64,000 nt of DNA from Janibacter anophelis NBRC 107843. GTDB taxonomy: Bacteria > Actinomycetota > Actinomycetes > Actinomycetales > Dermatophilaceae. The stretch lies in assembly GCF_001570945.1 (NCBI RefSeq), contig NZ_BCSQ01000003.1, positions 1 through 64,000 of the forward strand, read 5' to 3'. Made by a program: the position numbers and the translations under genes. Numbering within the stretch: the stretch's first letter is position 1; each line of letters opens with the position of its first letter. The notes beneath the pieces were generated by a model. The model was given only the letters and a program-made list of their open reading frames with translations. It was not told the DNA's origin and did not search any database. Below are positions 36,001-37,948 of this stretch, one piece after another.

Positions 36001-36063
36001 GCGGGTGGACGCCGACCCGCCGACGAATCACCCGCGCGCATACCTCCACCCGGCGGCCTCAGC
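36001..36063. repeat. 63-base repeat family B, right copy
   Basis: Direct repeat of 35226-35288 with four substitutions. Its end overlaps the cimA stop codon by five bases, so the native gap may originally have held a single copy. Confidence 0.85.
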
Positions 36064-37639
36064 GCACCGGCACCCTTGCCCGCATCAGGCCGTAGGTGAT
36101 GCCGTCGACGAGCGCCTCCCACGAGGCCTCGACGATGTTGGGCGCGACGCCGACGGTCGTCCACGAGGTCTGGCCGTCGCTGTGCTCGATGAGCACCCGC
36201 GTCGTCGCGTCGGTGCCGTGGGCGGCGTCGAGGATGCGCACCTTGTAGTCGATGAGCTCGATCCGCTCCAGCTCCGGGTAGACGACCGACAGCGCCTGGC
36301 GCAGGCCCTGGTCGAGCGCGTTGACCGGACCGTTGCCCTCCCCCGTCGCGACGAGCCGCTGCCCGCCGGCGACGGCCTTGACCGTCGCCTCGGAGAGGGC
36401 GTCGACCCCGCCGCGGGCGTCGATCATGATCCGCCAGGACTCGACCTGCGCGTACTCCGGCGCGGCCTCCTCGAGCTCACGCCGCAGCAGCAGCTCGAAG
36501 CTCGCGTCGGCCGCGTCGAAGGTGTACCCGCGCTGCTCCATCTCCTTGACCTTCGCCAGCACCCGCGTGAGGGCGGCGTCGTCACCGGCGAGGTCGACGC
36601 CGAACTCGCGGCTCTTGAGCTCCACGGTCGCGCGCCCGGCCATGTCCGAGACGAGCATGCGCATGTCGTTGCCGACGTCCTTGGGCTCGATGTGCTGGTA
36701 GAGGTCGGGGTCGACCTTGATCGCGCTCGCGTGCAGTCCGGCCTTGTGCGCGAAGGCCCCCGAGCCGACGTACGGCTGGCGGGAGAAGTGCGGGAAGTTG
36801 GTCACCTCGCTCACCGCGTGCGCGATGCGGGTGGCGTCCTGCAGCCGGTGCGGCTCGACGAGGTCCATGCCGAGCTTGAGCTGGAGGTTGGCGACGACGG
36901 TGATCAGGTCGGCGTTGCCGGTGCGCTCGCCGTAGGCGTTGACCGTGCCCTGCACGTGGTCGGCCCCGGCCTCGACGGCGGCCATCGTGTTGGCGACGGC
37001 ACAGCCGGTGTCGTTGTGGCAGTGGATGCCCAGCCGCGCCCCGGTGGCCTCGATGACGTCGGCGACGGCCGCGCTGACCTGGCCCGGGAGCATGCCGCCG
37101 TTGGTGTCGCACAGGGCGACGACCTCGGCGCCGGCCTCGTGGGCGGCGCGCACGCAGGCCAGCGCGTAGTCGCGGTCGAGGTGGTAGCCGTCGAAGAAGT
37201 GCTCGCCGTCGACCATGACCGCGCGCCCCTGTGCGCGCAGGTGCGAGACGGTGTCGGTGATCATCGCGAGGTTCTCCTCGCGGGTCGTGCGCAGGGCTCG
37301 CTCGACGTGCCCGGGGTGCATCTTGGCCACGAGGGTGATGACCGGCGCCTGCGAGTCGAGCAGCGCCTGCACCTGCGGGTCGGTCGCCGCGGACCCACCG
37401 GCGCGACGCGTGGCGCCGAAGGCCGCGAGCGTCGCCGTGTGCAGCTGCAGCTCGGTACGCGCCCGGGCGAAGAACTCGGTGTCGTTGGGGTTGGCCCCGG
37501 GCCATCCCCCTTCGATGTGGGTGACGCCGAGGTCGTCGAGGTGACGGGCGATCGTCAGCTTGTCCACGACCGAGAGGTTGATGCCCTCCTGCTGGGCACC
37601 GTCGCGCATCGTCGTGTCGTAGACGTGGAAGCCGGTCAT
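36059..37639 (-). CDS. cimA: Citramalate synthase
   Basis: Condenses pyruvate with acetyl-CoA to give (R)-citramalate, a threonine-independent entry to isoleucine. The HMGL-like barrel has the signature DTTMRDGAQQEGINLSVVDK at the start, the metal histidines in GIHCHNDTGCAVANT and the GERTGNADL element. The last 120 residues form a LeuA-type allosteric domain (PVNALDQGLRQALSVVYP onward), so it is likely feedback-inhibited by isoleucine. 526 residues from the ATG at 37639, with GGAG nine bases upstream. Its leader carries an attenuator with a peptide ending Leu-Ile-Ile. It opens the branched-chain amino-acid region. Confidence 0.94.
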   Translation of the reverse strand: MTGFHVYDTTMRDGAQQEGINLSVVDKLTIARHLDDLGVTHIEGGWPGANPNDTEFFARARTELQLHTATLAAFGATRRAGGSAATDPQVQALLDSQAPVITLVAKMHPGHVERALRTTREENLAMITDTVSHLRAQGRAVMVDGEHFFDGYHLDRDYALACVRAAHEAGAEVVALCDTNGGMLPGQVSAAVADVIEATGARLGIHCHNDTGCAVANTMAAVEAGADHVQGTVNAYGERTGNADLITVVANLQLKLGMDLVEPHRLQDATRIAHAVSEVTNFPHFSRQPYVGSGAFAHKAGLHASAIKVDPDLYQHIEPKDVGNDMRMLVSDMAGRATVELKSREFGVDLAGDDAALTRVLAKVKEMEQRGYTFDAADASFELLLRRELEEAAPEYAQVESWRIMIDARGGVDALSEATVKAVAGGQRLVATGEGNGPVNALDQGLRQALSVVYPELERIELIDYKVRILDAAHGTDATTRVLIEHSDGQTSWTTVGVAPNIVEASWEALVDGITYGLMRARVPVR

Positions 37640-37769
37640 CGTGGTCACTCCGGGATGGGGACGAAGGGAGGCGCTCGCCTCCCGCGGTGAGTGTGACACC
37701 TGCTCGTCGCGCCCGTCCGTGGCTGGGGTGTGCTCCGGACCCGATTGCTGTTGTCGCTGCCTGCTCGAC

Positions 37770-37829
37770 AAAAGCAAAAGACCCCCCGGGTGTGGGAGGT
37801 CCGCGCGACGAGCAGGTGGCTCGTCGCGC
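37770..37829 (-). promoter_or_regulatory. cimA attenuator: stem next to leader stop, then terminator
   Basis: Reading the minus strand: a perfect 11-bp hairpin (GCGCGACGAGC with its complement, loop 5; 37803-37829) directly follows the leader stop codon. One base later a GACCTCCC...GGGGGGTC terminator stem (37780-37801) ends in TTTTGCTTTT (37770-37779). Translational attenuation by the leader peptide is inferred. Confidence 0.7.
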
Positions 37830-37880
37830 CTAGATAATGAGCTGGGTCGCGGTGGCGACTCGGGTCGTCATCTGAAGCAT
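37830..37880 (-). CDS. cimA leader peptide (Leu-Ile-Ile end)
   Basis: A 16-residue open reading frame ending TATQLII and a TAG stop, directly followed by the first attenuator hairpin. A GTG three bases upstream could add one residue. The tandem isoleucine codons (ATT ATC) just before the stop make ribosome stalling sensitive to charged Ile-tRNA. That fits cimA, which feeds isoleucine. The peptide itself probably has no other function. Confidence 0.6.
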   Translation of the reverse strand: MLQMTTRVATATQLII

Positions 37881-37948
37881 CACCCGGTCACCATGGCACC
37901 ACCGGCGCACACGCGGCACCGGGCGTCCGGATCGTGGGATCCGGCGGT

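Follow-up and report, generated by a model that had tools for sequence, protein, structure and literature searches.

The stretch of DNA analysed here (hereafter, the window) comprises 64,000 nt of the Janibacter anophelis NBRC 107843 genome (contig NZ_BCSQ01000003.1). Open reading frames and family scans gave the minus-strand order ilvD, leuB, ilvE, a Cof-type HAD hydrolase gene, a short leader, and cimA; the ilvD label is a reading of its ORF, made without a family scan. The gene cimA (36059..37639, minus strand, ATG start codon at 37639) encodes citramalate synthase, as had been stated in an earlier note on this DNA and as borne out by TIGR00977, whose cut-off of 450 bits was exceeded with a score of 639. 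Its product is 95% identical to a Janibacter limosus protein, the best named relative.

Upstream of cimA, on the same strand, a leader ORF (37830..37883) starts with GTG at 37883 or ATG at 37880 and stops with TAG at 37832-37830. Its codons are GTG ATG CTT CAG ATG ACG ACC CGA GTC GCC ACC GCG ACC CAG CTC ATT ATC TAG, giving the peptide (V)MLQMTTRVATATQLII, and the C-terminal Ile codons are kept in relatives. The candidate sensor codons are the terminal ATT ATC (Ile-Ile; 37833..37838, minus strand), with AUU enriched relative to its usage in cimA coding sequences. Directly 3' of the stop codon begins hairpin 1 (37803..37829, minus strand), the proposed antiterminator, whose 11 bp are formed by the left arm GCGCGACGAGC (37829-37819) and the right arm GCTCGTCGCGC (37813-37803) around the loop CACCT. 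The terminator hairpin (37779..37802, minus strand; 9 bp, 6-nt loop) follows with a linker of 0 nt, and its U tract, TTTTGCTTTT (37770..37779, minus strand; TTTT-GC-TTTT), has a first T that is also paired in the stem. Hence, the leader peptide ending Leu-Ile-Ile, the 11-bp hairpin at once after it, and the T-tract terminator that the earlier note had described were all recovered on the minus strand.

The fold z-score of the element was -4.85, and none of 200 shuffles was as stable (0/200). Between 37600 and 38000, terminator-like patterns occurred three times, all overlapping versions of one terminator, compared with a shuffle mean of 0.1. An intrinsic terminator, as expected of leader-peptide attenuators, is indicated by the fold, the terminator search, and covariation in relatives, which also extends to hairpin 1. 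The distance from the terminator to cimA is 137 nt, with 130 nt between the end of the U tract and the cimA ATG.

A -10-like hexamer, CATGGT (37890..37895, minus strand), lies 6 nt before the GTG start, and a transcript beginning at this GTG would be leaderless. A consensus scan found no TTGACA/TATAAT-type promoters. Further upstream, a palindrome resembling GTCCA-N5-TGGAC was seen in 21/75 relatives, mostly ~100 nt upstream of hairpin 1, against 1/75 shuffled sequences (one shuffle each). It may be a regulator site. As a family-wide operator it was rejected, and the window holds only a degenerate form (TCCCACGATCCGGAC; 37925-37939, minus strand). We also observed, in the coding part of 36/76 cimA leaders (no control), a third hairpin ~24 nt upstream of hairpin 1 with an NACC loop and changing arms.

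That the element is more than chance follows from the presence of the same leader upstream of cimA in relatives. With E 0.001 as the upper limit, a covariance model (R1) matched 76/80 cimA loci from related species, 54 of the 80 having been used to train it. In two of the four misses, L076 and L083, no more than 69 nt separate the gene from the contig end; in L047, cimA apparently lies directly after ilvE, and in L066 no element was seen. Since 54 of the 80 loci had trained the model, we also drew 138 genomes evenly from the class; in these, 105 cimA genes scored above the TIGR00977 cut-off. R1 matched upstream of 73 of these 105 on the same strand, at 31-233 nt (median 76). Of the genome-wide matches at E < 1e-10 in the 138 genomes, 52/57 lay upstream of cimA; the other five comprised four ilvB leaders and one cimA fragment under the family cut-off. 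With search filters that lose some weak matches, no R1 match was found for 32/105 cimA genes of this draw; these 32 include 9/9 of family f25 and 9/9 of family f33, and one other lies at a contig start. In a larger draw, 232/394 class genomes had an element match at E up to 0.01. The even draw is the basis of the 138-genome counts only, other genome loci having been hand-picked from match lists, and the sets overlap, the leader of some genomes being the same as that of a named locus (e.g., L130 and L080). Within the J. anophelis genome itself, the cimA element was the sole significant model match, the next matches having E values of 0.35 and above. L116, a full-length but weak match (E 1.19), was dismissed as a further copy because a leader-like layout was absent by eye. 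Thus, the search for the same leader before cimA that the earlier note had proposed, and for which it had named a lack of conservation as refuting, showed that the leader with its Ile codons, hairpin 1, the terminator, and the association with cimA are all kept far beyond the genus.

The position of the Ile codons is tied to hairpin 1. With the frame fixed by the hairpin, codon -11 was Ile in 118/151 leaders and codon -8 in 119/151, against a background of 1.1% for Ile triplets upstream, and the codon at the hairpin arm was a stop in 105/151. AUU made up 68/175 of the sensor Ile codons at the related-species cimA loci vs. 23/1334 of the Ile codons in the cimA coding sequences of the same loci. 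The leader is, in this respect, a short ORF (median peptide length 10 among cimA leaders) carrying codons for the end product of the pathway. In 140/150 cimA leaders, a start codon in frame lay 5-9 nt beyond a -10-like hexamer (6-7 nt in 128), compared with 60/435 out-of-frame starts at such a distance; this comparison is somewhat generous, as the in-frame count uses the most favourable start of each leader, TTG included, while the control counts ATG and GTG singly. For the start and codon-usage counts the frame was picked by its Ile run, and L228, which has no Ile codons, was dropped (150 of 151).

Comparison among relatives likewise supports the two hairpins, both of which covary. The training alignment (A1) consisted of 54 of 73 parsed loci plus the window, giving 55 rows, with the window row 10 nt shorter at its 3' end. 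In six loci the search pattern had taken an upstream stop; starts were reset in L013, L025, L028, and L054, and L029 and L031 were left out. In A1, 97.2% of cells were paired vs. at most 56.5% in slid versions, and 9/19 pairs showed changes on both sides, compared with 6.5 in shuffles (5/500 shuffles reached 9). In another 75 cimA leaders, which were fitted to the model, 97.1% of cells were paired vs. at most 60.6% when slid, and both-side changes occurred in 12/19 pairs, a value attained by 0/500 shuffles. The total length of hairpin 1 ranged from 19 to 76 nt among these 75 leaders. Nevertheless, in folds trimmed to the two hairpins, 93 of 151 cimA elements had no linker between hairpin 1 and the terminator, 55 had one of 1 nt, and 3 had one of 2 nt, so that the spacing is held while hairpin size is not. 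When folded with 45 nt of leader, 150/151 leaders had both hairpins in their minimum free energy (MFE) structure, with linkers of 0, 1, and 2 nt in 104, 43, and 3; because the hairpins coexist, thermodynamics alone predicts no switch. By comparison across relatives, we regard the leader, its codons, both hairpins, their fixed spacing, and the link to cimA as established.

The same architecture also stands before other genes. From the downstream DNA, 171 match loci, hand-picked from match lists, were assigned to cimA (80), ilvB (51), leuS (21), leuA (3), ilvA (3), and others (13). NCBIfam matches exceeded their cut-offs for one example each of leuS, ilvB, and leuA and identified leuB in two of the 13 others; the best matches of the ilvA example were threonine ammonia-lyases, below their cut-offs. 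Taking the sensor frame as the longest I/L/V run, which is neutral among the three residues, we counted 164 Ile, 43 Leu, and 35 Val in cimA leaders (79 loci), 60 Leu and 4 Ile in leuS leaders (21 loci), 87 Val, 76 Leu, and 34 Ile in ilvB leaders (49 loci), 10 Leu and 1 Ile in leuA leaders (3 loci), and 2 Ile, 1 Leu, and 1 Val in ilvA leaders (3 loci). The sensor codons therefore switch with the gene (Leu for leuS, Val/Leu for ilvB), as attenuation predicts, which agrees with the remark in the earlier note that Ile codons make sense before cimA. A single model, R1, thus finds cimA, ilvB, leuS, leuA, and ilvA leaders, placing the element among the actinobacterial ilvB/leuS leader attenuators; the leaderless feature of that type was assessed on cimA leaders only. 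In a phylum-wide draw of 198 genomes, an R1 match with E no higher than 1e-4 was present in 39 (33 from outside the class), and downstream comparison assigned 38 picked loci to ilvB (30), leuA (2), and cimA (1), with 5 left without assignment.

Family f25 shows a distinct distribution: in the 138-genome draw its cimA genes lacked the element (9/9), and its three matches at E < 1e-3 all lay before ilvA. At L226, L293, and L294 of this family, the element precedes ilvA-like genes (threonine ammonia-lyase) and not cimA. The 13 other loci include an isocitrate lyase gene (L281), a gene near prephenate dehydratase (L265), contig ends, and chance matches. At L281, an element of the same type with the codons Val-Ala-Ile-Ala stands before the isocitrate lyase gene, and at L306 a leader ending Ile-Ile-Ile-stop precedes a 112-aa product without an NCBIfam match; the genome concerned carries a cimA element as well. 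The weak matches L296, L304, L307, L311, and L312 have no leader gene downstream, and four of the five have E values above 0.005; these look like chance and were set aside.

We consider it very likely that the element attenuates transcription by way of the ribosome and so adjusts cimA expression to the supply of charged tRNA-Ile, and the sequence comparisons lead us to expect that the cimA leader would function in this way in vivo. RNA polymerase would start at or next to the GTG, allowing a ribosome to load on the leaderless mini-ORF. When Ile is plentiful, the ribosome would reach the stop codon adjoining hairpin 1, and its footprint would cover the left arm, so that hairpin 1 would be blocked, the terminator would close, and transcription would stop. 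When Ile is scarce, the ribosome would stall on the Ile codons, which in the family as a whole precede the arm by 6-14 nt, and the left arm would be left largely free; hairpin 1 could then form as antiterminator, the terminator would fail, and RNA polymerase would read through to cimA. The direction of this switch is taken by analogy from published actinobacterial ilvB work. With a 26-nt footprint (PMC13236596), a ribosome at codon -14/-11 frees most of the left arm, and one at the stop codon covers it. In Janibacter, the Ile codons stand at -9/-6, a shift of 2 nt toward the arm relative to the most frequent register (-11/-8). The same footprint (PMC13236596) then leaves only about 5-6 of the 11 bp with the ribosome on the first Ile, so that the preceding Leu codon may play a part or a weaker response may result. 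Hairpin 1 and the terminator adjoin almost without exception, and the predicted folds show no base common to the two; we therefore propose that hairpin 1 would exclude the terminator by abutment. In such a model, the GC-clamped duplex set directly against the 5' end of the terminator stem could not enter the RNA exit channel along with it, which would leave the base of the stem open.

This mechanism has to be weighed against three others. Trp-type attenuators work by exclusive base pairing, and it is conceivable, albeit unlikely, that the cimA leader follows the same principle, with an unseen pairing of the right arm or of the leader with the terminator serving as the antiterminator and hairpin 1 serving as a protector (1:2) or pause hairpin. 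However, antiterminator and terminator were not mutually exclusive through shared bases in the predicted folds of the 151 cimA leaders, and direct extension of hairpin 1 was 0 in 137/151. If a single bulge of at most 2 nt is allowed, the possible extension of hairpin 1 is 0, 1, 2, or 3 bp in 53, 26, 65, and 7 leaders, respectively, with a mean of 1.17 vs. 1.32 in re-paired controls; an extension of 2-3 bp in 72/151 leaves room for a small overlap between hairpin 1 and the terminator, in keeping with the 3-nt overlap of antiterminator and terminator in C. glutamicum ilvBNC (PMC11857589). When competing pairings were sought in the 151 leaders, the mean longest helices were ~5 bp (G-U allowed) and at most about 1 SD above re-paired controls, a control that is blind to any pairing that never varies: 4.86 vs. 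4.98 for right arm with terminator, 5.50 vs. 5.58 for leader with terminator, and 4.87 vs. 4.80 for leader with right arm. A classical 2:3 antiterminator was accordingly rejected, complementarity in the 151 leaders showing no excess over these controls. Least probable of all, and in our view hardly credible, is that the element is the ordinary intergenic terminator of the ilvE/HAD-hydrolase unit and that the ORF has its Ile codons by chance. The element does sit between the Cof-type HAD gene and cimA, and its terminator is a good one; yet Ile codons at a fixed distance, the AUU bias, the leaderless start, and hairpin 1 all recur in relatives, and the sensor codons switch with the downstream gene.

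The last of the three would place control after transcription, with the right arm pairing nearer to cimA and acting on translation or RNA decay. The partner would be a third occurrence of the left arm of hairpin 1 (37697..37712, minus strand), a 16-nt stretch able to pair with the right arm and the loop, which the genus comparison and the MFE of the full leader brought out. While the span 37770-37880 given in the earlier note covers the leader and both hairpins, this copy (37712-37697) falls outside it. In its favour, a complementary run of 8-16 bp was present in 16/16 genus genomes (G-U allowed, no shuffle control), the hairpin-1 loop letters change together with the copy (e.g., L008, L009, and L098, in a genus set including L085-L099), and the pairing is chosen in the full-leader MFE. 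By exact matches and shuffling, however, only 10/75 loci reached p <= 0.05, with ~4 expected by chance, and only three of these ten are Janibacter (L005, L007, and L009), whereas Janibacter L006 (p 0.945) and L008 (p 0.11) were not significant. The copy lies 35-66 nt before the coding sequence in 15/16 genomes with located CDS start, which also argues against such a role. We consider this reading very improbable, and the copy was rejected as a family-wide part, though it is genus-wide in Janibacter.

On the reading we prefer, as a ribosome-mediated attenuator, citramalate synthase, the pyruvate-based entry to isoleucine, would join the genes under attenuation. The covariance model can be used to annotate the cimA attenuator, and the cimA leader could serve as an Ile-responsive switch in strain engineering. 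It also raises the mechanistic question of how an antiterminator works while taking no base of the terminator. More tentatively, and with somewhat less than even confidence, we suggest that Actinomycetota may possess one modular attenuator, with no shared base, in which an abutting hairpin blocks zipping of the terminator, and which would be reused with swapped codons before cimA, ilvA, ilvB, leuA, leuB, and leuS. Given the pattern in family f25, this module may also pass from one entry enzyme of isoleucine synthesis to the other.

Searches of databases and literature gave no counterpart before cimA. At the gathering score, Rfam release 15 found two tRNAs in the window and nothing at the element, and the T-box covariance model had no match in the window; with five relatives searched at E up to 10, Rfam again gave nothing at the element. 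SCO5529, which we take to be the S. coelicolor cimA, appeared in one paper in the open PMC literature, on Lon protease, whose accessible part reports only its reduced expression. The earlier note had called cimA attenuation little described, and this fits our searches of the open PMC literature, in which no title or opening of an abstract dealt with the subject; the two closest-looking papers are silent on cimA attenuation in their accessible sections. The same holds for the accessible sections of PMC1262725, PMC8079986, PMC11857589, PMC10272879, PMC13236596, PMC3223726, PMC13158618, and PMC13033682, and by name counts cimA is not named in PMC1262725 or PMC8079986.

Several known systems nonetheless resemble the cimA element, as far as the accessible sections of the cited papers describe them. 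Like the actinobacterial ileS T-box, it would sense Ile supply through tRNA-Ile, but the T-box binds tRNA directly and has no leader peptide (PMC1262725). The LEU element of leuA in Actinobacteria shares a leader peptide before a sister enzyme, 2-isopropylmalate synthase; however, it forms a pseudoknot with a base stem over the Shine-Dalgarno box and has no terminator, whereas a terminator is present here (PMC1262725). The Streptomyces leuS attenuators also combine a short ORF with a run of sensed codons, hairpins, and a terminator, and the cimA model matches leuS leaders, although there the codons are Leu and the gene is an aminoacyl-tRNA synthetase (PMC1262725, PMC8079986). For the S. coelicolor ilvB leader, changes of the sensor codons were reportedly without effect on regulation (cited in PMC1262725). 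With C. glutamicum ilvBNC, the cimA element shares a leaderless leader peptide, a coding hairpin (H1), an antiterminator (H2), and a terminator (H3) (PMC11857589, PMC10272879), the coding hairpin of 36/76 cimA leaders (no control) resembling H1 in its nearly fixed place. The gene and codons differ, and H2 and H3 of ilvBNC have 3 nt in common (PMC11857589), while such an overlap is unsupported in cimA leaders. In M. tuberculosis ilvB1, the antiterminator can form upon stalling but is blocked by a ribosome that has reached the stop codon (PMC13236596), and the same ribosome states are assigned to ON and OFF in M. tuberculosis ilvB1 and C. glutamicum ilvBNC (PMC13236596, PMC11857589). The M. tuberculosis ilvB1NC leader has LVVI codons before ilvB1 rather than Ile codons before cimA, and its structures are called mutually exclusive whereas those of the cimA leader coexist in predicted folds (PMC13236596). 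In common, the two have branched-chain amino acid codons in a short upstream ORF, an antiterminator favoured by stalling, masking by the ribosome at the stop codon, and an intrinsic terminator (PMC13236596), although for the cimA leader the stalling and masking steps are those of the proposed mechanism.
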